A stretch of DNA of 25,767 nucleotides from a virus. The notes beneath the pieces were generated by a model that saw only the letters and a list, made by a program, of their open reading frames with translations, was not told the DNA's origin and did not search any database. The DNA is taken from IMG/VR virus record IMGVR_UViG_3300009182_004041, positions 1 through 25,767 of that record; one strand, written 5' to 3'. Below are positions 1,751 to 24,895 of the stretch, piece after piece; the first letter of the stretch is position 1; every line of letters begins with the position of its first letter. The translations under genes were made by a program, and so were the position numbers.

Positions 1751-1956
1751 TGACATTTTATAAGCCGGTAGATCTTAAAGAAGAAGCATCATCTGGTTCT
1801 ACCAGTTCGGGTAGTATTGCCACTGTATCTGCTGCGCTAGGTGCTGTCCAGAAAAGAATTCCTGGAGATAGTTTGTTTTTCACTAAATATACTAATAATG
1901 AGAATCCAACGCCTAATACGCCGGATGCTTATAAAACATATAAACGGAACAAGTGA
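1750..1956 (+). CDS. Short Ser/Gly-rich protein, unknown
   Basis: A 68-residue protein. The first third is low-complexity (Ser, Gly, Thr and Ala, residues ~13-30), followed by a polar, Asn/Thr/Lys-rich tail that looks disordered. No domain is recognised. It is held in frame by one-base overlaps on both sides: TAATG with the upstream gene and TGATG (1954-1958) with the Dps-like gene. That conserved-style packing supports it as a real gene despite its composition. Function unknown; the neighbours suggest a virion-associated or assembly role. Confidence 0.6.
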   Translation: MTFYKPVDLKEEASSGSTSSGSIATVSAALGAVQKRIPGDSLFFTKYTNNENPTPNTPDAYKTYKRNK

Positions 1957-2396
1957 TGCTATCAGACTTAATGAAAACTTTATTAGCCAGTGACTTCAGT
2001 TATTATTTGAAGGCTCACTATTTCCATTGGAATGTGGAGGGAAAAGACTTCTATCAATACCACAAGTTTCTGCAAAAAGTTTACGAAGATGCATATGAAG
2101 CTGTGGATGCTATAGCTGAAATGATCAGAACCCTAGATGAATACGCACCTGGTAGCCTTACACGTTATAATGAATTATCACGTATACCAGACCAAACTAA
2201 GATCCCACGTGCTGAATTGATGCTAAAAGAATTATTGCATGATTCCCACACTATGATTGAACTTCTTAATGAATGTTTTGCTGCTGCTACACAAGAAAAT
2301 AAGCAAGACATAGCAAATTTTATCGCTGAAAGATTAACTGCCACAAACAAGTTTATCTGGATGATATCAAGTTTTTTGAAGGAATCTAGGGCATAA
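1956..2396 (+). CDS. dps: Dps/ferritin-like protein
   Basis: A 146-residue four-helix protein of the Dps family. Dps assembles as a 12-subunit shell that oxidises iron with peroxide and shields DNA. The ferroxidase pattern of E. coli Dps (H51, H63, D67, D78, E82) is reproduced with exact spacing: H24 in HWNV, H36, position 40, D51 and E55. Position 40, normally Asp or Glu, is Gln. The N-terminus is short (24 residues before the first ligand, against 51 in E. coli), so the lysine-rich DNA-binding tail is absent. I chose the ATG at 1956, which overlaps the upstream stop as TGATG, over the GTG at 1953. In a phage it could be packaged or protect replicating DNA in a stressed cell. The family call is firm; activity is uncertain because of the Gln. 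Confidence 0.85.
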   Translation: MLSDLMKTLLASDFSYYLKAHYFHWNVEGKDFYQYHKFLQKVYEDAYEAVDAIAEMIRTLDEYAPGSLTRYNELSRIPDQTKIPRAELMLKELLHDSHTMIELLNECFAAATQENKQDIANFIAERLTATNKFIWMISSFLKESRA

Positions 2397-3106
2397 TGAC
2401 AAATGACATGTACAGTATAATCGAACGGTTAGCTATCCTAGAAGGGCGTATTGCTCCAAAGGATAGTAAACCTATTACAGAAACTAAGCAAAAGAAACCT
2501 GTGCTTTTTAATAATTTAAGAAAAGTTAGTGAAGATGTTACACCTATGGTAGGTGGCGTTGAATTTGCCGAAGATACGATGGAAGAAGATGTACTGTCAA
2601 AAGTTAAGTCAAGTTTAGCTGACTATCTACACTCTGCTGAAGCTGATCTGGCACAAGATAGGGATTTGCTTGCTAAAAAGAAACAAGATTTAGATCTTAA
2701 GAAAAAAGAATTAAGAGATTTAGCATTACAATCTAAGCCTAATACTCGTCTTAAAAACATGAAAACGCAAGATATAGAAGAAGATCCAACACAGGAACCA
2801 GCTGCTGGTGAAGCACCAGCTATGTTAACAGATCCAACATTACCAGAAAGCATGAAGTCAGCACCCGTTAAAACAGTACATGTGCCCGTTGATGAAGAAG
2901 TTGGACTTAGTGGTGGTGGCGGTGCTGTATTAATTGAAATACATGGTGATGAGCGTGTCGGGTTTCGTATTCGTCGTGCCGGAAAAGAATTACCTAGACG
3001 ATTTAAAAGTCTAGCAGAATGTGAAATGGCATTGGAAATGTACATGGCTCGTCGCAAAGCACAAAAAGTTGCTGATGAGTCTGCTGATTATATTGAGGAA
3101 GCATAA
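2396..3106 (+). CDS. Coiled-coil protein, possible virion/assembly factor
   Basis: A 236-residue protein, joined by TAATG overlaps to the Dps-like gene and to the polyprotein. Residues ~68-112 form a highly charged Lys/Asp/Glu/Leu coiled coil. Residues ~113-170 are Pro/Glu/Ala-rich and probably disordered. A glycine run at 172-176 leads into a small folded C-terminal part (~178-224) with alternating hydrophobic and Arg residues. The N-terminal RLAILEG contains I-L-E|G, which fits the T4 gp21 prohead-protease pattern ([LI]xE followed by a small residue), and the protein ends in IEEA. N-termini of this kind occur in structural or core-like proteins of marine T4-like phages, as far as I recall. 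A scaffold, core or internal head role is a reasonable guess, not shown. Confidence 0.6.
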   Translation: MTNDMYSIIERLAILEGRIAPKDSKPITETKQKKPVLFNNLRKVSEDVTPMVGGVEFAEDTMEEDVLSKVKSSLADYLHSAEADLAQDRDLLAKKKQDLDLKKKELRDLALQSKPNTRLKNMKTQDIEEDPTQEPAAGEAPAMLTDPTLPESMKSAPVKTVHVPVDEEVGLSGGGGAVLIEIHGDERVGFRIRRAGKELPRRFKSLAECEMALEMYMARRKAQKVADESADYIEEA

Positions 3107-5802
3107 TGAATTTGTTTGATCTATTTGAAAGTAATCGTAAAGATGTTGATGAAGGATATACAGTTGTTCCTAGCATCAATCGTGAACGGTATACTGACCT
3201 AAGTCATGAAGGTCTTGAAGGTCCGATTAGATTAAAATCTGGCAAAGTTGTTTATTATGATCCTAAAGTAGGTCAATATTACGACCGTGATAGTGATTTC
3301 TATATGTCACATGAAGAACACGCAGCTCATGAGATTGATGAAAAATCAAATAAGTTAGGCTTTAAATTAAGTCCTACTTTAGTAAACAGACGGCAAGCAC
3401 ATGCTCTTACAACTGGGTTTAAGAAAAGTAAGTTTAACTTTGAAGAATATGAAGCAGAATCTCTTGATGATGAATTAGCTAATTTCAGAAGTAATAGAGC
3501 AGGAGCTGTTCGTGCCCAAAATCCATTTGCTAGTGCTAAATCAAAACGCACTAGTGAAATTCCAAGTAAACCACAAATCTCATCCGCCGAAGAACAACAA
3601 AGAACTAGTCAGTTAAATCGCTGCAAACAATTACTTGATATCGTTAATTCCACTAAACGTACAGATGCAACACTATCACGCATAGGCAACTATATAGATA
3701 AAATAGATGTTAATCGCTTTGAACCAGGACAATTAGACAACATAGAAAAAGTTTTATCCAGCTATGTAGCCGGTGCGGTAGCTAAAAAACCACGCAAGGC
3801 TAGCAAGCATGGAAAAGTAACAATGATTAATCCAGATGATGTCATGGCTGAAGGTATAGGCCCTGACATGGATGATCCATATGAACAAGGTTGGTATGCT
3901 GGTTTTAAACAAGTATCAAATCCGTACCAAAGAGGTACATCAGAACACGAAAGATGGGCTGATGGTTATGCAGATCGTATGGATCAACCCAATCACTATG
4001 ATGAAAGTATAGAGGAAGGCAAAACTGGACCTGGTTTGTGGGCTAATATACATGCTAAGCAAAATCGTATCAAGCATGGCAGTAAAGAACACATGCGTAA
4101 GCCAGGTAGCAAAGGTGCTCCTACCGCAGCTAATCTTAAGGCAGCAGCTAAGACTGAGGGAGTAGATGAAGCCACGGGCGATCCAAAGTTTGACAAGATG
4201 CTTAAGGGTATCACTGGTAAAAAAGTAGTTGCCAAGCAAAAAAAAGCTGATACCAAGCAGCAATCTCGTGATGCTTTTAGTAATATGTTTGGCGGTGGAA
4301 ATCCTACTGATGTTCTCAGCATTAGAAAGAAAGGTGTGGCGGAAGGCTCAGACAAAAAAACTATGAGTCGTGCTGCTAAGGGCAATGAAAAATATGGCAA
4401 AGATGGTATGAAAGCATTAGCCAAAGCTGGACGAGAAGGCAAAGACTTAGATAAAGTCAGAGACAAGTATAACAAGTATGACGAAAGTGTAGAAGAAGGT
4501 GCTAAATTTGGTGGATACTATAAGGGCACACAAAAAGGTGCTCCACGACCAGGACAAAGTTTTGGTTCTATGGAAGAGTCTATTAGCTTAAACACTACTG
4601 TTAAGGCTATTGCCAATGACATAGGTGAACCAATCACTAGTCTATATGCCACATTAAAGAAGATGGCTAAAAGTTACTATGACAACAATGGTGATCTAAA
4701 ACGTTTTGGTTTAGTAGCTGCTGGAGTTGGCAGTCGTTGGTTTCAAACATACTATGTTAATAAAATGCAAACGGACTTGTATGACTTAACTAGACAAAGT
4801 CCTGCACATGCTGCTGAATTGAAACAATTCCTTCGTGGCAAAATGGTAAAAGATAATCTTGTCATGCCTAAGAGTTTTAGTGAACTTAACAAGGATCTTC
4901 CTGAAATTCTTGCTAGAATGGGTACCAAAATGGGTGCTGAAGCACTAGCAAAGAATGCTAAGGCCTGGGTTTATAATAAGCACGATTACGAAGATTTCAT
5001 TAATAAGTTACTTAATGGCAAAGGCGACGATGACGATGATGGCGACGGTTACGGCGCTCCTGCTACGGTAGATGCTCCTAGCAAAGATGCCTTATTAGGA
5101 AAACAACGAAATCACGCAGAAGAAATCGTTAATGATGTATTAAGAAAACTGCCGTCAAATGTAGCAGGTGATATTCGTAATGCTATTGCTCGTGCTCCTA
5201 ATAAATTACAAGCACTTCAGCAAGAGTTACAAAAACGTAAAATTGCTCCTCCTATGGAAGAAGGAATTGCAGGCAATATGAAAGTACGATCAGATCCATT
5301 GACTAATCTGAAACAACACACAGACATAACAATGAAAAAACCTGATCCTTTTAAGGGTATGTCTAATCATAATAATTTGGCAAGTGCTAAAGCAAGAAAT
5401 TTAGTTGCTAAAGGTGCTCAGACAGCAGGCCCAGGCACTGGATCTCACAAAAATAAAGCGTTAGATGTTAAGAAAGGATTAACTCGCAATCTCAAACACA
5501 AAGGTAAATTTGATTTTTCAGAATCATCTAATTTCTTGACCTGGGCAGTTTCATCTGGATATAATGTTATTACTAATCCAGCTGTATATGAAAATGCAAA
5601 GCGAGTATACAATCGCCTGTTAACTGAAAGCAAAGGTGACTTAAAGCCCGGGCAATATTACATCTGGACCGTTCATTTTGATAGTGGTGATACTAGTCGT
5701 ATTAAGATCAAAGATGAAAAATTTGATGTTAAAGCATATTACAAACAGCAAAATAAATCTGTTGTAAATATCGATTATAATTGGGAACCACATAATGGAT
5801 AA
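3106..5802 (+). CDS. Modular polyprotein with prohead-protease-like sites
   Basis: An 898-residue protein, basic overall and built of short modules separated by recurring [V/I/M]-x-E followed by G, A or S. The Glu positions are 16, 249, 304, 355, 413, 464, 491 and 719. This resembles the T4 gp21 prohead-protease site. Cutting at all eight would give fragments 17-249, 250-304, 305-355, 356-413, 414-464, 465-491, 492-719 and 720-898. Fragments 305-355 and 414-464 are each 51 residues and Lys/Gly-rich, with different sequences (GPGLWANIHAK; MSRAAKGNEKYGK). Residues ~495-640 look helical and globular; ~644-656 is an Asp/Gly run. There is no signal peptide or catalytic motif. Basic, protease-released peptides suggest internal head proteins that enter with or condense DNA, as T4 internal proteins do. 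That is inference. It follows the coiled-coil gene by TAATG. Confidence 0.7.
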   Translation: MNLFDLFESNRKDVDEGYTVVPSINRERYTDLSHEGLEGPIRLKSGKVVYYDPKVGQYYDRDSDFYMSHEEHAAHEIDEKSNKLGFKLSPTLVNRRQAHALTTGFKKSKFNFEEYEAESLDDELANFRSNRAGAVRAQNPFASAKSKRTSEIPSKPQISSAEEQQRTSQLNRCKQLLDIVNSTKRTDATLSRIGNYIDKIDVNRFEPGQLDNIEKVLSSYVAGAVAKKPRKASKHGKVTMINPDDVMAEGIGPDMDDPYEQGWYAGFKQVSNPYQRGTSEHERWADGYADRMDQPNHYDESIEEGKTGPGLWANIHAKQNRIKHGSKEHMRKPGSKGAPTAANLKAAAKTEGVDEATGDPKFDKMLKGITGKKVVAKQKKADTKQQSRDAFSNMFGGGNPTDVLSIRKKGVAEGSDKKTMSRAAKGNEKYGKDGMKALAKAGREGKDLDKVRDKYNKYDESVEEGAKFGGYYKGTQKGAPRPGQSFGSMEESISLNTTVKAIANDIGEPITSLYATLKKMAKSYYDNNGDLKRFGLVAAGVGSRWFQTYYVNKMQTDLYDLTRQSPAHAAELKQFLRGKMVKDNLVMPKSFSELNKDLPEILARMGTKMGAEALAKNAKAWVYNKHDYEDFINKLLNGKGDDDDDGDGYGAPATVDAPSKDALLGKQRNHAEEIVNDVLRKLPSNVAGDIRNAIARAPNKLQALQQELQKRKIAPPMEEGIAGNMKVRSDPLTNLKQHTDITMKKPDPFKGMSNHNNLASAKARNLVAKGAQTAGPGTGSHKNKALDVKKGLTRNLKHKGKFDFSESSNFLTWAVSSGYNVITNPAVYENAKRVYNRLLTESKGDLKPGQYYIWTVHFDSGDTSRIKIKDEKFDVKAYYKQQNKSVVNIDYNWEPHNG

Positions 5803-5899
5803 TTACCCAGTATACCCTGAACAAGAAGAAGGCGATGATAGTGATTACAAACGTAATCCCTATGCACCTACTATAGAATCCACCTTAGGATCCGTTTGA
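5795..5899 (+). CDS. Possible 34-residue acidic/Tyr-rich protein
   Basis: An ATG overlaps the end of the polyprotein gene by eight bases and opens 34 codons to a TGA at 5897-5899. The peptide (MDNYPVYPEQEEGDDSDYKR and onward) is acidic and Tyr/Pro-rich. Translation could be coupled to the upstream stop, as with the other genes in this run. Its last codons run into the hairpin region that starts near 5892. It is too short for composition to prove coding, so it is a candidate only. Confidence 0.35.
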   Translation: MDNYPVYPEQEEGDDSDYKRNPYAPTIESTLGSV

Positions 5900-13154: not shown

Positions 13155-13859
13155 ATGAAAATTTTAGTATGTGGTAGTTCTGTAGTAATGCCTGATCTTT
13201 CAAAGTCGTGGACACAACGAACTTGGATTTATCATCTACAGCAAAAATTAAATTGCGAAGTTGTAAATATATCACGATCAGGTTGTGGCAATCAATACAT
13301 GCATGATGCGGTTATTGCAGAGGTCACAGAAAGACCCTACGATTTAGTTTTGGTATCTTGGAATATAGCAGACCGTATACAATTTAGAACACAATATAAT
13401 CTTAGATTATTTGATTGGGATAGAAATGGAGGAAATCCTCATGAGCAATATATGCAAAAAGATTGGATTTTTCCGCATACTCCTGATGAAATAATGCCAT
13501 TTATTGATACTATTGGTTATAAAAATAAAATTTTTGAACAGTATTTCTGTGTCATGCCAAAGTATGAAACTAATCATCAGATAATGCTAACTAATGTATT
13601 ATCATTACAGTCTACTCTTAAGTCATATGGTATACCATATACATTTGTTTGGTATAGAACGTTACTACAACTTAAACAGTTTAAAAACTATTACAATAAA
13701 ATTGATTGGAATTATGTACACCCCAGAAGCCTTTTTAGGCAAGCTAAAAATATGAACATGTGGGATGAAAAAACATTACATCCAACTGATGCAGCATATC
13801 GTTGGTATGCTGATGAGATATATAAGTTTCTTAGTGACAGAAATCTAATAAAGCCCTAG
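13155..13859 (+). CDS. SGNH/GDSL-hydrolase-like protein
   Basis: A 234-residue protein with the block layout of SGNH hydrolases, esterases or deacylases active on acylated sugars and lipids. Block I is ILVCGSS with S8 as the candidate nucleophile; block II is the Gly-containing SRSGCGNQY; block III is VSWNIAD with the Asn; block V is DEKTLHPTDAAY with the D-x-x-x-H-like pair. There is no signal peptide, so it acts in the cytoplasm or on the virion. Its 3' end overlaps the oppositely oriented adenylating-enzyme gene by 29 bases. An exact late box lies 49 bases upstream. Pairing with an acyl-activating enzyme hints at acyl-group chemistry, for example acylating or deacylating a sugar. Fold likely; reaction unknown. 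Confidence 0.65.
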   Translation: MKILVCGSSVVMPDLSKSWTQRTWIYHLQQKLNCEVVNISRSGCGNQYMHDAVIAEVTERPYDLVLVSWNIADRIQFRTQYNLRLFDWDRNGGNPHEQYMQKDWIFPHTPDEIMPFIDTIGYKNKIFEQYFCVMPKYETNHQIMLTNVLSLQSTLKSYGIPYTFVWYRTLLQLKQFKNYYNKIDWNYVHPRSLFRQAKNMNMWDEKTLHPTDAAYRWYADEIYKFLSDRNLIKP

Positions 13860-14910
13860 ATATTTTTCCAGCTGGACTAAGTGGAATTGTATCTACTGAT
13901 TTAAGTACAACTGGTTTACAATGTTTACCTAAACTTATTAAGAAGTTCTTAATACTATTTTCATCACATGCACCAACGTATAAACACTTAACCCTGTCAG
14001 TTCCAAATACAACACATTCTTTCATTCCGGAAATATTTTGTAATAGTTGTCGTTCTATACTTACAGGATTGATTTTAGAACCTTTGACATTAATTTGATC
14101 TCTACTACGGCCTAATATACGATAGTAGCCCATTTCATCTTGCTCAGCTAGGTCTCCTGTATCATACCAATCACCATGGCAAATATTAAAACCCTTGATC
14201 ATTAAATTACCATTTTCAATCTTAGCTTCTATGCCATCAGGCAGTCCTACTGTACCAACTCGTTGTGGACCAGCAAGTGGATTAGTGAAACAGTGACTCA
14301 TTGCCTCTGTCATGCCAAACGCTTCTACAATAGGCACATTAAACTTTGAGTTTAACTTGTGATACAAATCGGATGGCATAGGAGCACTGGCAGAGCGTAT
14401 AAATCTTAAATTGTCAAAATCTAATTCAGCAATAACCCTTAGTACATCAGGAATGGCCGTTATAAAAGTTGGCTTAGTGGATGGAAAGGTTTTAATATCT
14501 TTCATAGTAATGTAGGTAGTCTCACATCCTGCTAACTGTGTTGCCCAGTAAAAACCCTGTCCATGGGCATGCCATAGACTCATGATGCTGGTATATCTAT
14601 CGTTAGCTGTCAAATTGTATGAGCTAACGATGGTAGCAGCCATGTTGTTTAGCTGTGCTTGTGTGAAACTGCAAAACTTACTATCTCCTGTGGTACCTGA
14701 TGTATACCAAAGTACTCTTTCGTTAGGATAATCGTTGCCGTTTCTAACTTTTTCTTGATCTTTAGTAATGTATAAACTCCAGTCAGCGTTGTCTAAAAGA
14801 TATCTATTCCTAGCTTCAGGGGCATTAGGATTTATAATCATGATAGAATGATCTGTTAACTGAGGGATAAAGTGTTGTGGATTGTCAACACATAAGACGG
14901 CACGTTTCAT
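13831..14910 (-). CDS. Compact ANL-type adenylate-forming enzyme
   Basis: A 359-residue AMP-dependent synthetase/ligase, the only minus-strand gene here. Such enzymes activate a carboxylate with ATP as an acyl-adenylate, usually then passing it to CoA or a carrier. Motifs are complete: P-loop YTSGTTGDSK (69-78), HAHG (114-117), EAFGMTEA (196-203), YDTGD (249-253), GRSRDQINVKG hinge (267-277) and the C-terminal lysine in LSPAGK (K349). It is much shorter than the usual 500-550 residues: the P-loop is near residue 70 instead of ~160-190, so much of the N-terminal subdomain is missing. The ATG (14908-14910) follows a minus-strand late box by five bases, which predicts a leaderless late mRNA. No CoA-transfer partner or carrier protein is visible; the SGNH gene is the closest functional neighbour. 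Confidence 0.9.
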   Translation of the reverse strand: MKRAVLCVDNPQHFIPQLTDHSIMIINPNAPEARNRYLLDNADWSLYITKDQEKVRNGNDYPNERVLWYTSGTTGDSKFCSFTQAQLNNMAATIVSSYNLTANDRYTSIMSLWHAHGQGFYWATQLAGCETTYITMKDIKTFPSTKPTFITAIPDVLRVIAELDFDNLRFIRSASAPMPSDLYHKLNSKFNVPIVEAFGMTEAMSHCFTNPLAGPQRVGTVGLPDGIEAKIENGNLMIKGFNICHGDWYDTGDLAEQDEMGYYRILGRSRDQINVKGSKINPVSIERQLLQNISGMKECVVFGTDRVKCLYVGACDENSIKNFLISLGKHCKPVVLKSVDTIPLSPAGKISRALLDFCH

Positions 14911-14915
14911 AGGAA

Positions 14916-14923
14916 TATTTATA
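14916..14923 (-). promoter_or_regulatory. T4-type late promoter on minus strand
   Basis: On the minus strand this reads TATAAATA followed by TTCCT and then the ATG of the adenylating enzyme. Under the T4 rule the first transcribed base would be the A of that ATG. Together with the exact box, this is strong placement evidence. Confidence 0.7.
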
Positions 14924-14934
14924 TACCAAAATGC

Positions 14935-14963
14935 TTGTCACATTCTTTTTGTTATAGTACAAT
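14935..14963 (+). promoter_or_regulatory. Sigma70-type promoter, probably leaderless
   Basis: TTGTCA (14935-14940) and TACAAT (14958-14963) are separated by 17 bases. The ATG at 14969 begins six bases after the -10, where transcription is expected to start, and there is no ribosome-binding site between. It diverges from the minus-strand late promoter. Confidence 0.6.
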
Positions 14964-14968
14964 ACATT

Positions 14969-15430
14969 ATGACTAAATCCATTAACCAACTAATAGTAGT
15001 AACAGGAACCGACGATTATATGCCAACTCTACATGAAATTTTTGAACGACGGACGACAACTCAAGAAGAATATGATAGTCTTTATAACTCTGACAATCTA
15101 TACATTGCCTGGGCAAAGAAAAAAGATGATGCTCAATTAAGTGATTTTGTCAATGCTATTGACGCAGAGTATTACTTGTGGACTAATACTTTGACTGGCA
15201 CTAGTAAAAGTACATCTAAACTTAAAAATGATTCAGTAAATGGATCAATTCAGGGTCACATCTTTAGTGTCACAGCAAAGCAGATGGATCTATTTGAAAA
15301 AGTAGCACTAATGCCATCCATGAAATATGGATATCGCTTTGACAAACATGATATCAATGACCTTAAAGAAAAAGAAAAGCAAGCAATGATTGATGCTCTT
15401 AGCCGTCCAGATGAGGATAGTGATGATTGA
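14969..15430 (+). CDS. Hypothetical protein, first of a small-gene run
   Basis: A 153-residue soluble protein, likely alpha/beta, with an acidic C-terminus (RPDEDSDD). No domain is recognised. I start at ATG 14969 because the promoter -10 lies just upstream; the frame is open further upstream but that would put the promoter inside the gene. Its 3' end overlaps the next gene by eight bases. It opens a set of five closely packed small genes to 16622. Those starts overlap by 4 or 8 bases, so they are probably translated as a unit. Confidence 0.65.
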   Translation: MTKSINQLIVVTGTDDYMPTLHEIFERRTTTQEEYDSLYNSDNLYIAWAKKKDDAQLSDFVNAIDAEYYLWTNTLTGTSKSTSKLKNDSVNGSIQGHIFSVTAKQMDLFEKVALMPSMKYGYRFDKHDINDLKEKEKQAMIDALSRPDEDSDD

Positions 15431-15779
15431 TCATATTAAAGTAGGAGGACCATGGATAGAAATTTCAACTGTCAGTGGTAGCATACCATATATGCCACCT
15501 AGCTCTAACCCCATGCATGGTGCGGTTAGAGTTTCAAATGGACAACAAGAGTTTTGGAATGGCACTTCTTGGATGGTCATGTGCGGTGGGGGTGTAACAA
15601 TTGCGTTAACTAAACGTGCAGAAGCAATAATGGATTGGGCCGATAAGAAAATGGCACAAGAACATAGGGCAGAAGAATTGGCCAAAACTAAACCTGCAGT
15701 AGCAGATGCCCTTGCTGCTGCCAAACACGCACAAGAGCAACTTGATATTATATTACTATTAACTGAGGAAAATAAATGA
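15423..15779 (+). CDS. Hypothetical protein with aromatic N-domain and helical tail
   Basis: A 118-residue protein. Residues 1-60 are beta-prone with a FWNGTSWMVM motif; short motifs like this recur in phage structural or fibre-associated proteins, but the link is weak. Residues ~62-115 form one long Ala/Lys/Glu-rich helix, probably a coiled coil. I start at ATG 15423, eight bases inside the upstream gene, with AGGA-like bases in the preceding coding sequence; a longer N-terminal extension in the same frame is unlikely. The stop overlaps the next ATG (ATGA). Function unknown. Confidence 0.6.
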   Translation: MIDHIKVGGPWIEISTVSGSIPYMPPSSNPMHGAVRVSNGQQEFWNGTSWMVMCGGGVTIALTKRAEAIMDWADKKMAQEHRAEELAKTKPAVADALAAAKHAQEQLDIILLLTEENK

Positions 15780-15937
15780 GCACTCAAGAACTATTGAACG
15801 AAGCTATTAATCAATATGCCGATAAGGTTTGGAAAGAAAAACCAGGTAAGATGACACTTGAAAGAAGGCCATATGAACCAATTTGGAATGAAATCTGGCG
15901 GCTGTCTGGTATTATTATTAACGGAGAAGGTAAATGA
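15776..15937 (+). CDS. 53-residue hypothetical protein
   Basis: A short gene overlapped by ATGA junctions at both ends (15776-15779 and 15934-15937), the typical sign of a real gene in a coupled run. GAGGAAA lies just upstream as ribosome-binding site. The peptide is amphipathic with several Trp residues (VWKEK, IWNEIWRL) and a hydrophobic end (GIIING). No domain is recognised; function unknown. Confidence 0.65.
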   Translation: MSTQELLNEAINQYADKVWKEKPGKMTLERRPYEPIWNEIWRLSGIIINGEGK

Positions 15938-16317
15938 CACCAATGGTTAAAAACTTTGCTAAGTGTGGATGTGGTCGTACCAGAGATCTGGAAGGCTATT
16001 GCGATAGCAGTCACGCACTATCGGAAGAAGAATACGCAGCATTACAAGATATTGAAGAAATTGATTGGGGCGACGATGACGATGAAGAAATCAACTCAAT
16101 CAAAGTTGTTTTTGCGCCAGGATGTTTTGATAACTTTGATGGTACGCAAGAAGAACTTGAAAAACTCATTACAGACATTCAAGCAAAGTTTGCGGGTAAA
16201 ACTGGGGATGAAATCGAGAATATGGCAGATGTAGTAAATCTAGAAGATTTGATGCAAGAAGATCCAGAATTTGCCAAACATCTAATGAATCTTGATAATG
16301 AAAGGAAATTACAATGA
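15934..16317 (+). CDS. CDGSH-like iron-sulfur protein with acidic tail
   Basis: A 127-residue protein. Near the N-terminus C11-G-C13-G-R-T-R-D-L-E-G-Y-C23-D-S-S-H27 resembles the CDGSH motif CxCx2[ST]x3PxCDGSH, whose three Cys and one His hold a redox-active 2Fe-2S cluster. It differs by one extra residue between the cysteine pairs, no proline, and Ser in place of the CDGSH glycine. The rest is very acidic (WGDDDDEE at ~50) with predicted helices. The first step of the motif and the SHALSEEEY that follows agree with small CDGSH proteins I recall in phages. A zinc-binding knuckle is the alternative. It overlaps both neighbours by ATGA. Confidence 0.55.
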   Translation: MTPMVKNFAKCGCGRTRDLEGYCDSSHALSEEEYAALQDIEEIDWGDDDDEEINSIKVVFAPGCFDNFDGTQEELEKLITDIQAKFAGKTGDEIENMADVVNLEDLMQEDPEFAKHLMNLDNERKLQ

Positions 16318-16622
16318 AATGGGCTAAAAAATTACTGCTTAAATGGGTAGCAGACGCCCAACGTGAGCAGTACAATGAACCACACGTTGTGGAAGAAACA
16401 GATATGAAGTTGGCAAGTAATCAGGTGGATGATCATGAAATTAATATGGACAAGGCTGTTAAATTTTCCATGTTGCCCGCTCGTGGTGGATGTGTCCTAG
16501 AAATTAAATCATGGGATAAAAAAGAGCGTGAGTGGGATATCGTAGCTCATGTTATTCCAGAAGGTGAGGACATTGCTCATGCAGTAGGACAGTTGGTGTC
16601 AATGGAAATGCTTCGACGGTAA
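16314..16622 (+). CDS. Hypothetical protein, small soluble
   Basis: A 102-residue protein starting inside the stop of the CDGSH-like gene (ATGA), preceded by AAAGGAAA. A basic N-terminal helix (KWAKKLLLKW) is followed by an acidic linker and a beta-rich half (CVLEIKSWDKKEREWDIVAHVIPEG) ending in a helix. I recognise no family. It is the last gene before the gap containing the TAAATA boxes that precedes the sugar cassette. Confidence 0.6.
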   Translation: MKWAKKLLLKWVADAQREQYNEPHVVEETDMKLASNQVDDHEINMDKAVKFSMLPARGGCVLEIKSWDKKEREWDIVAHVIPEGEDIAHAVGQLVSMEMLRR

Positions 16623-16668
16623 CATCTTATACAGTAGTAAATAAAATTATTAACTACTAACATTATTC

Positions 16669-16676
16669 AGTAAATA
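16669..16676 (+). promoter_or_regulatory. Weak late-promoter-like box AGTAAATA
   Basis: AGTAAATA, followed by ACTC, matches six of eight bases of TATAAATA and lies 22 bases before the glycosyltransferase ATG; AAAGGAT (16687-16693) is the ribosome-binding site. A second TAAATA is at 16638-16643. These are the only promoter-like elements seen ahead of the sugar cassette, and both are imperfect. Confidence 0.35.
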
Positions 16677-16698
16677 ACTCAACTGTAAAAGGATAGAG

Positions 16699-17526
16699 AT
16701 GACCAGCACCACAAACGAATACAAAATAGCAGTATTATTACCAACTAGGGCTAGGACAACAGCATTAAAATTTAGTATTATCAGTGTCTTCAATCGCGCA
16801 CTTGATGTAGATTCAGTACAACTAGTGCTGGGATTTGACAATGATGACGAAGTGGGATTAAAATATTTTTCCACTGACATCCAACCTTGGTTAGAAGATA
16901 AAGGTGTAGCATATAGCGTAGTAGTATTTGAACCTATGGGCTATAATGGTTTGAATCGTTATTATAACGGTCTAGCAGTTCAAGCAAATGCCGATTGGTT
17001 ATTCGTATGGAATGATGATGCGCTTATGGAAACTACAGGCTGGGACAGAATTGTAACTAATCATGCCGGTCAATTCAAGTTGCTTAAGATTCATGTTCAC
17101 CGCGAACATCCTTATTCAATTTTTCCTATATATCCCAAGGAATGGTATGATTTATTTGGATTTGTATCTCGACACCAAATGACTGACGCTGAACTCAGCC
17201 AGATTGCTTATATGCTAGACATTATGGAAATTGTAGAAATTTATGCTACGCATGACAGACATGATTTAACTGGCAATAATAATGACACAACTTATCAAAA
17301 ACGTGATATACTAGAAGGGAATCCTAATAACCCACTAGACTTCCATCACTTTTCGTATGGCAATGGCAGAGTAGCAGATACTAATGTTATTGCTGCCTAT
17401 TTAGAATCTAAAAATGTAGACATTACATTTTGGAATAATGTTAAAGCAGGAAAACAAGATCCCTGGGAAAAACTCAGGGCCAATGATATCAACAAACAAA
17501 TGACACAAACAACGGTAAAAAGATAA
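16699..17526 (+). CDS. GT2-like glycosyltransferase
   Basis: A 275-residue protein with a GT-A fold signature. IAVLLPTRAR at the N-terminus is the usual nucleotide-binding strand of family 2 enzymes. LVLGFDNDDEVG lies at ~42-53, and N105-D106-D107 after the strand WLFVW is the DxD-type metal and donor-sugar site. It has no membrane helix, so the acceptor is cytoplasmic: DNA, protein, nucleotide or a lipid at the membrane. The C-terminal ~100 residues (SRHQMTDAELSQI and onward) are probably acceptor-specific. It is the first gene of the sugar cassette, joined to the next by TAATG at 17524-17528. Likely late-expressed. Fold confident; donor inferred from the cassette and acceptor unknown. Confidence 0.75.
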   Translation: MTSTTNEYKIAVLLPTRARTTALKFSIISVFNRALDVDSVQLVLGFDNDDEVGLKYFSTDIQPWLEDKGVAYSVVVFEPMGYNGLNRYYNGLAVQANADWLFVWNDDALMETTGWDRIVTNHAGQFKLLKIHVHREHPYSIFPIYPKEWYDLFGFVSRHQMTDAELSQIAYMLDIMEIVEIYATHDRHDLTGNNNDTTYQKRDILEGNPNNPLDFHHFSYGNGRVADTNVIAAYLESKNVDITFWNNVKAGKQDPWEKLRANDINKQMTQTTVKR

Positions 17527-18755
17527 TGAGTAAAATCACAGAAAGTAAACATTTATGGCAATGTGTAATCAGCAATGCTCCAGTGACCAAGATTTTAGAT
17601 TTTGGGCAACATGCATACGCTGATACATTCATTGCTGAAAATCAATTAAATTTATCTGAGCCTGTATTCCCGCTCCAGTTATATTTAAGTTCGGAATCAG
17701 GTGGCATTCAACTGGGTTATGCCAGTGATGCCAAGGATCGCTATAACTTGTATAGTTATAGTTATACCAGTTCCAATTCTAAGACAGCAAGAGATCACTG
17801 GGACGAATATGCCACTACCATCAAGAATAAATTTAATCCTAGGGGATTAGTTGTAGAGATTGGTAGCAATGACGGATATCTAATCAAACAATTCCAAGAA
17901 GATGGTGTCACTGCCCTAGGTGTTGACTCATCCAAAGACATGTGTAAAATTGCCAAGGCAGCAGGAGTTAACACAGTTAAAGGATTGTTTAACATTGAAT
18001 TAGCTGATAAGCTAGAATACAAACATGGAAGAGCAAATTTGATCATGGCTAATAATGTATTCAATCATGCCAATGATCCTATTGAGTTTGCAGTAGGTAT
18101 TACACATTTGCTAGACAAAGAAGGTTTGTTTGTCTTTGAAGTACCATACTGGGCCAGCATGGTTGAAAGCGGTCGTTTTATGGACATGGTGTACCACGAA
18201 CATATTTCTTACTTTACGGTTAAGAGTGTTTGGAATTTGCTACAGCAAGTTGGAATGACAATTGTAGATTATGATGTGGTTGATTACCACGGTGGAAGTC
18301 TGCGTGTTATTGCTAAAATGGATACCGGTAATGGAATGCCAGTTCTAGTACAAAGTGCAATTGAAAAAGAAACAGCAATGGGTTTGTTTAGTTATAAATT
18401 TTATAACAAGCTACAGACAAAATTTGAACAACAGCGCAATGAGTGGCTTCGCAAATTTTACCAAATTCTAGCTGATGAGCCAGATGCCGTTATTATTGGC
18501 GTGGGCGCAGCCGCAAAGGCAAATACCTGGCTCAACTGGCACAAACTAGATAAGACTCTCCTACATTGTATTACTGATTCTAGTGAATTTAAACAGGGTA
18601 AATATACTCCACTATCACGAATTCCTATTAAGGGTGACGAAGAATTTGCGCTACATGAAAAACCATATGCGTTAGTATTAAGCTGGAACATCGGCGAACC
18701 ACTAAAGCAAGCGTTACTAAAAATTAATCCAAATACAAGGTTTCTATCACAATGA
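17526..18755 (+). CDS. Nucleotide-sugar C-methyltransferase-like protein (TylC3/TcaB9 type)
   Basis: A 409-residue protein with the three-part plan of sugar C-methyltransferases that make branched-chain deoxysugars. The SAM-binding motif is VVEIGSNDG (109-117). Y223-H-E-H226 is the catalytic cluster; TcaB9 uses a Tyr/Glu/His set at nearly the same positions. HGGSLR and a C-terminal Rossmann-like half (VIIGVGAAAKANTW) are also conserved. The N-terminal zinc-binding part has decayed: where relatives carry two CxxC pairs, this one has C-V-I-S near residue 13 and no Cys in the second pair (LYLSSESGG). The catalytic core looks intact. Substrate would be a 4-keto NDP-sugar, with methylation normally at C3. 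It overlaps both neighbours, so translation is coupled within the cassette. Confidence 0.85.
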   Translation: MSKITESKHLWQCVISNAPVTKILDFGQHAYADTFIAENQLNLSEPVFPLQLYLSSESGGIQLGYASDAKDRYNLYSYSYTSSNSKTARDHWDEYATTIKNKFNPRGLVVEIGSNDGYLIKQFQEDGVTALGVDSSKDMCKIAKAAGVNTVKGLFNIELADKLEYKHGRANLIMANNVFNHANDPIEFAVGITHLLDKEGLFVFEVPYWASMVESGRFMDMVYHEHISYFTVKSVWNLLQQVGMTIVDYDVVDYHGGSLRVIAKMDTGNGMPVLVQSAIEKETAMGLFSYKFYNKLQTKFEQQRNEWLRKFYQILADEPDAVIIGVGAAAKANTWLNWHKLDKTLLHCITDSSEFKQGKYTPLSRIPIKGDEEFALHEKPYALVLSWNIGEPLKQALLKINPNTRFLSQ

Positions 18756-19159
18756 AATGTTACAACGTTGCTATCAACACAGAACCAGGCCTAGGCTCAT
18801 TCGATGATGAGCGTGGATCTATCGTAGATATCTTTTACAAGAAATCTATTAATCACGGCTGTATCATTAGTAATAATCCAGGTGCGGTGCGTGGTAACCA
18901 TTATCACAACCATACAATTCAATATACGTATGTTCTAGCAGGTGGATTAACTTATTACTCTCAGCCCGTAGATAAATCAGAACCAGTTTCAGCTTATGAA
19001 GCTGTTCCTGGAGATTTTATCATCAGTGATCCAAAAGAAATTCATGCTATGAAATCTGGTGAGCATGGATGTGTTTTTATAGCCTTTGCTGAAGGTCCCC
19101 GTGGTGGCGAAGATTACGAAACAGATACAGTAAGAGTTGATTCTATTATTCCAGAATGA
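18752..19159 (+). CDS. Cupin-fold sugar-isomerase-like protein
   Basis: A 135-residue single-domain cupin. Motif 1 is RGNHYHNHTIQYTYVLAGG, with His ligands in the HYH stretch; motif 2 is GDFIISDPKEIHAM. DERGSIVDIF near the N-terminus resembles the opening of dTDP-4-keto-sugar 3,5-epimerases (RmlC) and FdtA/QdtA-type 3,4-ketoisomerases and WbmH/CapF-type cupins. Between a sugar C-methyltransferase and an SDR, epimerising or isomerising a keto-sugar is the natural role. It has a 4-base ATGA overlap at each end. Which of the related reactions it performs cannot be told by eye. Confidence 0.75.
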   Translation: MKCYNVAINTEPGLGSFDDERGSIVDIFYKKSINHGCIISNNPGAVRGNHYHNHTIQYTYVLAGGLTYYSQPVDKSEPVSAYEAVPGDFIISDPKEIHAMKSGEHGCVFIAFAEGPRGGEDYETDTVRVDSIIPE

Positions 19160-19749
19160 AAGTAGTTATATTTGGTGGTAAAGGTGGTATAGGTAGTGCT
19201 ACTTGTGCTGCATTTGATGCAGCTGGATATACGGTATATTCTATTAGTAGTAAACAAATTGACTTTGAATGGATACAAAGTCAGCCTCAAGTAGATGAGT
19301 TATTAAGAAAAATTATGCCTGACGTGGTTGTTAACTGTGTCGGGCATTTTGACGATACCAATAAAGAAACTCATTTTAAAACTATGAACATTAATGTTGG
19401 CTCTAACTGGAGCATTATCAAACATTACATGGAAAATAAAAGCACCAAACCAGTAAAAATTATTATGGTAGGATCTAGTTCCTATAACTCAGTAAGAAAG
19501 AGCTATATTTTATACGCTGCCAGTAAAACCGCACTATATAATGTATGGCAAGGAGCTTGCGAGTATTTTTTAGGATCTAATATAACATTAGGGCTAATTA
19601 ATCCTGTAAGAACTCGTACACCAATGATAGATATGTCAACTAAAGCTATTTGCCTAGAGCCAGATGAAGTAGCGCAAGCAATTTTAAACATGACATCAAC
19701 TGAAGGTAATGAATTAGTTGATATGAAGTATCCAGAGGAAATAAAATGA
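19156..19749 (+). CDS. Short-chain dehydrogenase/reductase (SDR)
   Basis: A 197-residue classical SDR. The cofactor-binding motif is GGKGGIG near residues 8-14, then VNCVG and the active-site serines in GSSSY, then Y120-A-A-S-K124 as the catalytic YxxxK. NPVRTRTPM follows, typical after the active site. It is slightly shorter than the usual ~250, lacking the C-terminal segment that shapes substrate specificity. In this cassette it probably reduces a keto-sugar intermediate with NAD(P)H. It is embedded between the cupin and the dehydrogenase by 4-base overlaps. Confidence 0.85.
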   Translation: MKVVIFGGKGGIGSATCAAFDAAGYTVYSISSKQIDFEWIQSQPQVDELLRKIMPDVVVNCVGHFDDTNKETHFKTMNINVGSNWSIIKHYMENKSTKPVKIIMVGSSSYNSVRKSYILYAASKTALYNVWQGACEYFLGSNITLGLINPVRTRTPMIDMSTKAICLEPDEVAQAILNMTSTEGNELVDMKYPEEIK

Positions 19750-20522
19750 AAATTGGAATTATAGGCAAGGGAACGGTAGGCAAGGCAGTATACGAAGGTC
19801 TTAATCATCTAGGACATGAAATGAGTTTTTTTGATCCAGCATATGATGGATCAACAATCAATGATATCTTAGGCACAGATTGTGTGTTTATCAGTGTACC
19901 AACTAATCAAGCTGCAAATGGAGATTGTGATACTAGTATTGTAGAAAGTGTTATATCAGCATTACACGCAGCTGAATATAAGGGTCTAGTTAGTATTAAA
20001 AGTACAGTAGTACCTGGCACATGTGATCGCTTATCAGCAGAATATCCTAAACTACGTATTTGCTCAGTGCCAGAATTTCTTCGTGCAAAGACAGCATTAG
20101 CTGATTTTATGTACAATCATGATCTTCTAATTATCGGCAGTACTCGTGATGAAGATTATGTCATGATGAAAGCAATACACGGTAACTTGCCAAAGAATGT
20201 TGCATGTGTTAAACCAGCAGAGGCAGAAGTTGTAAAATATTTTAACAATGTAAATCATGCTACCCAAATTATATTTGCCAACATTGCATATGAAGTATGT
20301 AAAAAACTAGGTGTAGATTACAACAATGTATATAACGCTATCATTCAACGTGATAGTATCAACCCTGCTTATCTAATGTGTAATGAGAACCTTCGTGGTT
20401 TCGGCGGACATTGTTTGCCAAAAGATACAAGTGCATGGAACAATCTTGTTAAAAGTTTAGGACTAGAGTTTTCAATGATTCAAGCTCTTATTGATGATAA
20501 CGCAAAGGTGAATAATGAGTAA
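19746..20522 (+). CDS. Short UDP-glucose/GDP-mannose dehydrogenase-like enzyme
   Basis: A 258-residue member of the nucleotide-sugar 6-dehydrogenase family, which oxidises the C6 hydroxyl of UDP-glucose or similar to a carboxylate using two NAD+. The N-terminal GxGxVG is IGKGTVG; VPTN, KSTVVPGT and PEFLR follow. The central helix has VKYFNNVNHA and the catalytic cysteine is C223 in GFGGHCLPKD. Usual members are 390-450 residues; the C-terminal nucleotide-sugar-binding domain is absent here. The stop is clean and the next gene starts eight bases before it, so this is the gene's design and not a recent break. Probable product: a UDP-uronic acid feeding the next enzyme. Confidence 0.85.
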   Translation: MKIGIIGKGTVGKAVYEGLNHLGHEMSFFDPAYDGSTINDILGTDCVFISVPTNQAANGDCDTSIVESVISALHAAEYKGLVSIKSTVVPGTCDRLSAEYPKLRICSVPEFLRAKTALADFMYNHDLLIIGSTRDEDYVMMKAIHGNLPKNVACVKPAEAEVVKYFNNVNHATQIIFANIAYEVCKKLGVDYNNVYNAIIQRDSINPAYLMCNENLRGFGGHCLPKDTSAWNNLVKSLGLEFSMIQALIDDNAKVNNE

Positions 20523-21414
20523 AATCTTAGTAACAGGTGCCAGTGGATTATTAGGCACAGAATTTTGCCACCAGCTTAAAGCGACAGGTAACGAAGTCTG
20601 GGCGGTTGATAATCATAGTCGCAGTGAAACTATTCCTCCTTGTGATGAATGGTATAAAATGGATTTGTTGGCAAATGATAGATTTATTGGACTATCATCA
20701 TTACCCCGTGATTTTGATTACATTTACCATTATAGTGCTATTAACGGCACCACTAACTTTTATAAAATGCCAAATAAGGTATTGGAAAACAACTTTATCA
20801 GTGATATCAATATATTCAATTTTGCCGCCAAGTGTAAAAATCTTAAGCGGTTAGTATATGCATCAAGCTCTGAAGTTGTCGCTGATGATCCTGTTAGTCC
20901 TGTTACCGAAAACTCAGATGTATTCATTAAAGATATACATAACGCACGCTGGAGTTATCGTTTAGCTAAGATTACCAGTGAAAACTTTCTGGCTAATTCT
21001 GAATTGCCTTATGTTATGCTGCGGTACTTCAATGTATATGGCGAGAATTCAAAACAAGGGCACTTTCTTGGTGATCAAATTAATAAGATTAAGAATGGTG
21101 TATTCTCAGTCATTGGTTCCCATGAAACACGATCATTCTGTCATGTAAGTGATGCTATTCGTGCCAGTATCTATGTCACCGAAAATGCCAATCGTGTACT
21201 AGTAAATGTTGGAAATGATCGTGAAATATCAATTGGTGATGCTGTTCGTGTTATCGCAAATGAACTGGGTCACCCTGATGCTGTATTTGAAGAGCTACCC
21301 AGTATGCCAGGATCTGTGGCTAATCGTCGTCCTGATCTTACTAAGCTGCGTGAAATTATGCCTGATTACAATCCTTTGAGTTTTGAAGAGGGTATTCGGC
21401 AAATTTTAAATTGA
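20515..21414 (+). CDS. NAD-dependent epimerase/dehydratase, extended SDR
   Basis: A 299-residue extended SDR of the nucleotide-sugar epimerase/dehydratase/decarboxylase group. TGASGLLG (7-14) binds NAD, ASSSEV contains the active-site serine, and Y148-R-L-A-K152 is the catalytic YxxxK; RYFNVYGE and FCHVSDAI are the usual later motifs. Its position after a UDP-sugar dehydrogenase suggests a UDP-glucuronate decarboxylase or 4-epimerase (to UDP-xylose, UDP-galacturonate or a keto-sugar), but specificity cannot be read from the sequence. It starts inside the dehydrogenase gene (overlap 20515-20522) and closes the cassette. Its stop overlaps the -35 of the following promoter. Confidence 0.85.
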   Translation: MSKILVTGASGLLGTEFCHQLKATGNEVWAVDNHSRSETIPPCDEWYKMDLLANDRFIGLSSLPRDFDYIYHYSAINGTTNFYKMPNKVLENNFISDINIFNFAAKCKNLKRLVYASSSEVVADDPVSPVTENSDVFIKDIHNARWSYRLAKITSENFLANSELPYVMLRYFNVYGENSKQGHFLGDQINKIKNGVFSVIGSHETRSFCHVSDAIRASIYVTENANRVLVNVGNDREISIGDAVRVIANELGHPDAVFEELPSMPGSVANRRPDLTKLREIMPDYNPLSFEEGIRQILN

Positions 21415-23354: not shown

Positions 23355-23765
23355 ATGTTAACACCAGACGCAGCATTAGGAATAATAGATATGTTTAAAA
23401 TGATTAAAAGATGGTTTACAAAGAAACCAGTGGAAAAAGCAGCACCTACCTCACCAGTTAAGACAGCTAAAGAGTTAGCCACTGATCGTGGTGAAGCCTA
23501 TGTTAATATTGTTAGCATGGATGTTGATCCAAATGGTATGGGCATGGGTTCTTTTGAATTAGACTGGAATGCAAAGTTTATTGCTGATCTAGTCAGGCAT
23601 GGTTACATGATGGATCAGAATGATACTGATGCTGACATTGTGGATCGTTGGTTTACTAATGTATGCAGAAATGTAGTATTGGAAACATATGAACAATATG
23701 AAGCTATGAGCAATCGTGTTGTAAAAACACGAGATATGGGTGATGGTCGAAGCGAGGTCAGCTAG
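23355..23765 (+). CDS. Hypothetical protein, conserved-looking core
   Basis: A 136-residue protein starting with ATG immediately after the upstream stop (TAAATG); ATG codons at 23391 and 23400 are possible later starts. After a Lys/Pro-rich segment (residues ~18-36), a compact acidic core follows (AKELATDRGEAYVNIVSMDV, then GSFELDWNAKFIADLVRHGY). I recall similar proteins in cyanophages and other marine T4-like phages, annotated as hypothetical. It ends with TAG overlapping the GTG start of the radical SAM gene by one base (TAGTG). Confidence 0.6.
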   Translation: MLTPDAALGIIDMFKMIKRWFTKKPVEKAAPTSPVKTAKELATDRGEAYVNIVSMDVDPNGMGMGSFELDWNAKFIADLVRHGYMMDQNDTDADIVDRWFTNVCRNVVLETYEQYEAMSNRVVKTRDMGDGRSEVS

Positions 23766-24895
23766 TGTCTGAAAACAAATCACTGTGTTCGTATCCATGG
23801 CGTGGTGCTTGCATATATCCAACTGGAATAGTAAAACCATGCTGCTACTGGCTTTCTGCTAATGGAAATATAAATAAGACCAATAGCAATACTACAAATG
23901 ATGCCAGAAATTCTATTGAATGGAATAACATCAGAGAAGACATGCTAGCAGGTAATCCAGTAAAGGGTTGCGAAAAATGTTACGAAATGGAATCTGTTGG
24001 CACTCATAGTGGCAGACTTAGTAGTTTACAATATCTTGTGCCTACTGAAAATAAATTAGCTCCACTAGAAGATCTTGAAGTTTCATTTAGTAATCTATGT
24101 AACTTGGCATGTGTTGGATGTGGTGATTTTAATTCCACTAAATGGAGCACTGAAAATATTAAAGCAGGTCGTCGTGGTATGAAACTTATTGATAATAAGT
24201 TTGATTGGACACAATGGGATTTGTCAAAATTAAAAACTCTTAAGATACTTGGTGGCGAGCCATTTATGGAATCAGACAGATTTTGTGATCTATTAGAATC
24301 GGTGAATCTATCTGGAGTTGAGTTGGTTGTTAATACTAATGGTACCATTCTACCTAATCCACGATTAAAAGCATTGATAGAAAAATGTAAAAAAGTTAAG
24401 TTTCTGGTTAGTATAGATGGAATGGAACTAGTTAATGACTGGAATCGTTGGCCAGGTAAATTTGAAAATATAGTAGAAACCATGCGAGTGTATGAAACAT
24501 GGTGGAAACATTTTGATAATATTATACTTAAAACACATAGTGTAGTAAATATTTTCAATATATTTACCATGGAAGATTTTATAAATTTCATGAAAAAAGA
24601 TTTTCCAAACTGGACTGCTGATTTCATGTGGGTTAATAGCCCAAGATGGCAATCTGTTCAAACACTACCAAAAGAAGTAAAGACTAGATTAATAACTGAA
24701 TTTAGTAGTAAAAACGTTGGTGACTTGAAAACTTCTAGAGAAGATTTCTATAAATTATCAATTGGTTATTTAAAAATGGATAGCTCTGTTGATTGGAATG
24801 ATGTCAAGCGCCAGATAGCCTCACTCGCAGCCGAGCGTAATTTAAATACGGAAGTTATGATACCAGATTTACAAAAGGTAATGAATGATTTTTAA
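23765..24895 (+). CDS. Radical SAM protein with N-terminal auxiliary cluster region
   Basis: A 376-residue radical SAM enzyme. The 4Fe-4S motif is C112-N-L-A-C116-V-G-C119 (Cx3Cx2C) and G163-G-E-P follows, so the core that cleaves SAM is intact. Before it, the first 72 residues hold six more cysteines (C8, C16, C26, C27, C69, C72) in a CSYPW...PCCYW...GCEKC layout, like SPASM or twitch auxiliary-cluster segments, which normally follow the core. The start is GTG at 23765, sharing one base with the upstream stop. Such phage proteins are annotated as twitch-domain radical SAM proteins; their substrates are unknown, with peptide or protein modification typical for the wider group. Confidence 0.9.
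   Translation: MSENKSLCSYPWRGACIYPTGIVKPCCYWLSANGNINKTNSNTTNDARNSIEWNNIREDMLAGNPVKGCEKCYEMESVGTHSGRLSSLQYLVPTENKLAPLEDLEVSFSNLCNLACVGCGDFNSTKWSTENIKAGRRGMKLIDNKFDWTQWDLSKLKTLKILGGEPFMESDRFCDLLESVNLSGVELVVNTNGTILPNPRLKALIEKCKKVKFLVSIDGMELVNDWNRWPGKFENIVETMRVYETWWKHFDNIILKTHSVVNIFNIFTMEDFINFMKKDFPNWTADFMWVNSPRWQSVQTLPKEVKTRLITEFSSKNVGDLKTSREDFYKLSIGYLKMDSSVDWNDVKRQIASLAAERNLNTEVMIPDLQKVMNDF

Follow-up and report, generated by a model that had tools for sequence, protein, structure and literature searches.

The 25.8-kb window (the whole stretch of 25,767 nucleotides that was analysed) comes from a T4-related environmental phage. Its gene at positions 3106-5802 probably specifies a mosaic precursor, composed of exchangeable modules, that a gp21-type protease cuts in the prohead to give internal head (cargo) proteins. 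A probability of roughly 0.7 was assigned to this reading. Polyproteins with exchangeable modules are not known to us as a source of internal head proteins in tailed phages. A description of a modular prohead-protease polyprotein was not found in the open-access literature; subscription papers were mostly outside the search. The open reading frame was intact and the chain, together with the gene upstream of it, was divided into the following features (arrows mark predicted cuts).

2396..3106, plus strand: upstream gene of 236 aa; an ILE↓G site lies close to its start and an IEE↓A site at its end
3106..5802, plus strand: polyprotein gene, 898 aa, ten [VILM]xE↓[GAS] sites
3106..3153, plus strand: putative leader, residues 1-16, MNLFDLFE↓SNRKDVDE↓, like the capsid-targeting leader of T4 internal proteins
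3154..3852, plus strand: module 17-249, of which residues 24-74 match phrog_13298 and the stand-alone KVP40.0154; dN/dS 0.13-0.22
3853..4017, plus strand: module 250-304, acidic, weak likeness to ribosome modulation factor below the Pfam cut-off
4018..4170, plus strand: module 305-355, LWANIHAK..., basic, phrog_16028; stand-alone small genes in podoviruses
4171..4344, plus strand: module 356-413, ATGDPKFDK..., basic, with further copies in unrelated polyproteins
4345..4497, plus strand: module 414-464, MSRAAKGxEKYGK..., basic, the widest-spread module of the chain
4498..4578, plus strand: module 465-491, short, basic, identical in the sister genes L004 and L005
4579..5262, plus strand: module 492-719, 228 aa, absent from site to site in the sister gene L007; dN/dS 0.04-0.06
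5263..5799, plus strand: C-terminal part 720-898, possible further sites at 806 and 841; dN/dS 0.06-0.09

The initial annotation had reported [V/I/M]-x-E followed by G, A or S at eight glutamates, and an ORF scan with 5000 shuffles confirmed all of them. The strict pattern [VIM].E[GAS] occurred at Glu 16, 249, 304, 355, 413, 464, 491 and 719 only. These eight sites compared with a mean of 1.43 in the shuffled protein, and none of the 5000 shuffles reached eight. With other residues at P1, the same pattern was counted 0 (D), 0 (Q), 2 (N) and 5 (K) times. Other long ORFs of the window held at most two strict sites each. Allowing L at P3 raised the number to ten, through the LxE↓S-type sites at Glu 8 (LFE↓S) and Glu 841 (LTE↓S). 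Neither of these had been listed before, nor had FSE↓S at Glu 806. The modules between the sites did differ in composition as described, with a pI of 4.3 for residues 250-304 and of 10.2, 10.1 and 9.2 for the three that follow. Since module 250-304 is acidic, DNA binding or condensation cannot be the general role of the products. Fragments 305-355 and 414-464 both comprise 51 aa, as had been pointed out, but the equal length is a coincidence, because the fragments are unrelated in sequence and the lengths of their homologues vary.

Pfam and PHROGs scans of the chain returned no named family, and no enzymatic or peptidase domain was present in Pfam and NCBIfam scans. The ribosome modulation factor family PF04957 scored 15.1-15.3 bits with window module 250-304, below the cut-off of 27.9; the best match among relatives of this module had an E-value of 5e-4. 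No match was obtained between the chain and a defence library. Sequence searches of solved structures gave nothing meaningful (progesterone receptor, E 0.8). AlphaFold2 models of domain 492-719 and module 250-304 reached pLDDT values of 47 and 62, respectively, and were too poor for fold searches.

The modules recurred in other phages with their borders at the sites, and they were shuffled there, a point that the initial annotation had proposed to check. A scan of viral contigs with the window protein yielded 78 loci. Most of these had one module in common with it, mostly at 65-90% identity, in an ORF that was otherwise unrelated. The matched ranges 353-413, 416-462 and 300-350 stopped at or near sites. 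In a border test on 21 ORFs with little overlap, 27% of the ends of shared segments lay within 5 aa of [VILM]xE↓[GASCT], compared with a random mean of 9.9% (500 runs, maximum 16.4%). Controls with K or D at P1 were flat. Module 414-464 was not found in bacterial genomes, and tblastn searches of annotated phages with modules 356-413 and 414-464 gave no match, perhaps in part due to the BLAST low-complexity filter.

Whole modules were also gained and lost between sister genes. The sister gene L004 carried three such modules: one of 91 aa inserted at DV(E/D)E↓, one of 105 aa inserted between PPMEE↓ and ↓GIAG, and one of 71 aa that ends in MHE↓. L007 lacked the whole 492-719 domain, between MEE↓ and MEE↓, and kept the front modules. 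Of seven clean insertions and deletions between sister genes, at least five ran exactly from [VILM]xE to [VILM]xE, a number that 0 of 20,000 random placements reached; only clean events were counted, the global pairwise gap list of distant sisters being mostly alignment noise. Under a strict P1' rule, three of the same seven events remained. A sixth event, after SMTE↓ and before GVSE↓ATG, was exact too and was scored out by a one-residue offset. Two observations count against the precursor reading: the right end of one of the seven insertions had no site, and unusual P1' residues (D, R) occurred at some junctions.

At the junctions, Glu at P1 and V, I or M at P3 were kept. The sites are conserved in homologues, and the refuting condition of the initial annotation, a lack of conservation between modules, did not arise. 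P2 was D, E, A, S, T, R, K or H and the flanks varied. The codons differed from junction to junction. Together with the kept P3 and P1, this indicates a rule at the protein level. Recombination joints in the DNA were rejected as an explanation on account of the differing codons. These data also bear on the idea that the chain is an uncut modular protein, packaged and injected whole like polyvalent proteins, whose xEG stretches serve for flexible linkage or recombination. Such proteins of phages are multi-domain and mosaic and are sometimes transferred whole, for example the virion RNA polymerase of N4 (PMC5512222). However, the DNA at the junctions is not shared, synonymous codons differ between sites, and fixed P3 and P1 with a free P2 follow a protease rule. 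Signal-peptide-like starts directly behind the site and a matching protease in the sister genome, both described below, likewise speak against an uncut chain, which we regard as very improbable.

Codon comparisons with sister genes gave dN/dS values of 0.04 to 0.26 for every module of at least 50 aa, with 0.05-0.26 for the front modules. For module 356-413, 12 cross-family comparisons had a median pN of 0.12 and pS of 0.60. For module 414-464, 43 ORFs compared between phage groups had medians of 0.11 and 0.72, respectively. The modules are under purifying selection and are functional units. Some exist as genes of their own. Stretch 24-74 is present as a complete small gene, KVP40.0154, with 83 aa, and the LWANIHAK module (305-355), matched by 60 phage records, makes up a gene of 59 aa that comes just behind the portal region in a podovirus.

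Selection on the front modules is relevant to the possibility that only the C-terminal product or products, 492-719 and 720-898, are mature, with the variable front as a multiply cut, disposable propeptide as in SPN3US and phiKZ. The C-terminal part is indeed the most conserved, with 95-98% identity of module 492-719 to the sisters and residues 720-898 conserved in L002-L007 and L117, and the front varies. Propeptides of SPN3US, 111-254 aa in length, are cut several times (PMC10052503). Yet a disposable front is not expected to show the dN/dS values given above, nor to recur at 65-90% identity in unrelated chains and as stand-alone genes, and L007 dispenses with the 492-719 domain and not with the front modules. 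The propeptide explanation is therefore considered unlikely.

Several modules of sister and related polyproteins opened with a signal-peptide-like stretch, such as GWKSKLAGAALAGAAAFGGGAQA or GLKSKIAGAALAAANLLGSPAQA. Two DNA patterns, one for coding sequence of the GWK[ST]KLAG type and one for the GLK[ST]KIAGAA type, were used to scan viral contigs. They yielded 11 different contexts with a signal-peptide-like continuation, and in all of them this start followed directly after [VIM][DE]E↓ and the sequence further upstream differed; the 11 contexts are homologous modules and not 11 inventions. Examples were L113:2471-4498, L004:4362-8096 and L154-L157. In-frame pattern matches without a signal-peptide-like continuation had no site before them. 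One such match was the N-terminal region of a lysozyme-like protein, in which GLKSKIAGAALGG stands directly after a Met codon, possibly its start. The window chain contained no signal-peptide-like module; its sister L004 had one. A signal-peptide-like stretch needs a free N-terminus, and its fixed place behind the site therefore argues that the site is cut. The signal-peptide-like starts thus count as independent evidence for cleavage.

The chain starts with MNLFDLFE↓S, and MNLFDLFE was conserved in L004, L005, L007 and L118. In T4, MKTYQEFIAE↓A opens both IPII and IPIII, and IPI contains ...TITE↓A. Of 39 distinct N-termini of the family, 25 had a site within the first 28 aa, compared with 141 of 665 other ORFs (Fisher p 3e-8). 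By pattern and position, the N-terminal leader ending in a gp21-type site resembles a capsid-targeting leader.

The gp21-like protease invoked by the initial annotation had no match in the 25.8-kb window fragment and is known from relatives only, a point against the precursor reading. A full-length homologue of the polyprotein was located on a 177-kb contig (L005/G001; best segment 79% identity), and this sister genome encoded a gp21-type protease (PF03420, E 2e-25). Nine contigs were searched with the gp21 and gp23 of G001: the two with gp23 also had gp21, and the seven without gp21 were also without gp23. When 187 non-overlapping ORFs of the sister genome were ranked by their excess of strict motifs, gp22 came first (p 7e-6); in T4, gp21 degrades the counterpart of this protein. 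The polyprotein homologue was second (p 5e-3), a value not significant alone once corrected for 187 ORFs. The homologue of the 236-aa upstream gene and the gp67-like gene were in the top ten with two sites each, not significant alone. The interpretation in the initial annotation was supported in part: its core, a multi-module precursor cut at gp21-type sites, held in all tests run, through the protease of a relative, the conserved sites, the shuffled modules and the leader.

G001 also encoded gp20 and, in its head block, a gp67-like protein whose sites are VEE↓S and IEE↓G; a gp22-like gene lay between gp21 and gp23. The labels gp67-like and gp22-like rest on position and composition, and neither gene was found in this genome by phmmer with T4 proteins. 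LLE↓S and LLE↓G were present in the N-terminal part of G001 gp23, and the N-terminal gp23 sites were conserved in the relative G009. In cyanophage-like loci, a gene for the 414-464 module lay between gp20 and gp21, in the place of T4 gp67/68, and in many other myoviruses it lay just before or near gp17. The position beside gp20/gp21 or gp17 ties this module to head genes. In the lineage of the window, the polyprotein gene adjoined the DNA polymerase gene, far from the head block, which counts against the precursor reading.

The same loci bring into play a prohead core or scaffold role like that of T4 gp22, gp67 and gp68. The peptides cut by gp21 would then be mostly expelled, and the modules would serve assembly and not infection. 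The shared sites in gp22 and gp67 and the gp67/68-like place of the module gene in cyanophage-like loci favour this role. However, the sister genome already has gp67-like and gp22 genes in its head block, modules change freely between sisters, and signal-peptide-like modules have no obvious scaffold function. Modules also occur as single genes in podoviruses, which to our knowledge lack an S77 protease as a group. A purely scaffolding chain is accordingly a minority option, though the strongest competitor of the cargo precursor.

The surroundings of the gene were inspected as well. A Dps-like ferritin gene without cut sites (window 1953-2396; phrog_3636, Pfam Ferritin) was located near the polyprotein gene, and Dps-like relatives were present at the polyprotein loci L007, L101, L105, L108, L112, L113 and L118. 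In several of the phages L101, L105, L108 and L113, the slot had one and the same Dps-like gene nearby, together with a shared regulator gene of 86 aa, and the modules in that slot differed from phage to phage. The upstream gene at 2396-3106 corresponded to the C-terminal part of the polyprotein in these four. A 68-aa ORF at 1750-1956 (MTFYKPVDLKEE↓ASSGSTSSGSIATVSAALGAVQKRI...) was similar to residues 40-68 of G001 gp23 (52% over 29 aa, E 8e-4), about where the mature N-arm should start. It also resembled the start of the L112 polyprotein. From these similarities, it may be a capsid-lattice mimic or tether. A short ORF at 5796-5899 (MDNYPVYPEQEEGDDSDYKRNPYAPTIESTLGSV) overlapped the end of the polyprotein gene. 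The T4 late-promoter pattern had no site just upstream of the polyprotein gene, a further point against the precursor reading, and no excess in the window; scans for consensus promoters and terminators were at chance level. By eye, region 13831-21414 held genes resembling those for an acyl-CoA-synthetase-like enzyme (minus strand), a methyltransferase, sugar-nucleotide epimerase and dehydrogenase-type enzymes and glycosyltransferase-like proteins; this block may serve to modify DNA or the sugars of a surface. At 23765-24895, a radical-SAM-like protein was recognised by eye, its cysteines being in a CxxxCxxC-like arrangement.

Known systems share parts of this organisation. In T4, IPI, IPII, IPIII and Alt are targeted to the core of the prohead by a leader that ends in xE↓A and is cut off by gp21 (PMC3012670, PMC9958956). 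As in the window chain, a leader is combined with cargo that is highly variable between phages (PMC3012670, PMC9958956), but each T4 gene has one cargo and one leader cut, whereas the window chain has one leader and eight or more site-bordered modules. T4 gp22, gp67 and gp68 carry several gp21-type sites per chain and are cut into peptides (PMC9958956). They share the multiple sites with the window chain but are scaffold, and their peptides are mostly expelled. T4 therefore has both halves apart, a leader-bearing single cargo in the IPs and multi-cut core proteins in gp22 and gp67. We know of no exchangeable modules with relatives in other genes for gp22, gp67 and gp68. Head and ejection proteins of SPN3US, such as gp245, and of phiKZ undergo multiple AxE cuts by the prohead protease (PMC10052503). 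Apart from the protease's own, these cuts remove N-terminal propeptides and leave one mature protein (PMC10052503), unlike the window chain with sites throughout, between modules. Polyvalent proteins are mosaic and multi-domain, are predicted to be packaged and injected, and have domains that also occur alone (Iyer et al. 2017, PMC5512222). Their domains are mostly large and enzymatic, and processing, if any, is by a built-in metallopeptidase or a C-terminal assemblin-like peptidase (PMC5512222). In contrast, the window chain consists of small modules without a recognised built-in protease, and its sites fit a separate gp21.

In the cargo-precursor reading, the MNLFDLFE↓ leader would direct the chain to the core of the prohead. 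Once assembly is complete, the gp21-type protease would cut after [V/I/M/L]xE, remove the leader and free about 8 to 11 polypeptides. Some products would remain with the DNA and enter the host infected next; others may leave the head in the manner of T4 core peptides. We infer cleavage, packaging, ejection or injection, an equal copy number of the products and the role of each module from the sequence comparisons. Because the same protein-level cut site bounds every module, the gain or loss of a module, or its exchange between phages, would leave processing intact, and one gene slot would act as a changeable cargo rack. More tentatively, and with less confidence than an even chance, this may be a widespread strategy in which a mosaic polyprotein cut by the prohead protease delivers changeable effectors with the DNA, some of them Sec-exported to the periplasm. 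In some modules, a Sec signal peptide would become usable only once the cut has been made (xE↓GWKSKLAGAALAGAAAFGGGAQA); these modules would enter the cytoplasm by injection and, speculatively, be exported from there to the periplasm of the new host.

Altogether, the analysis suggests that phages make their head cargo in the form of mosaic polyproteins that are then cut up. If this holds, many environmental-phage genes annotated as hypothetical proteins could be read through the [V/I/M]xE↓ rule as lists of head peptides. The reading would also explain in a simple way how phages swap cargo and still package it, and would supply many small conserved phage-specific peptides with boundaries already marked by evolution.
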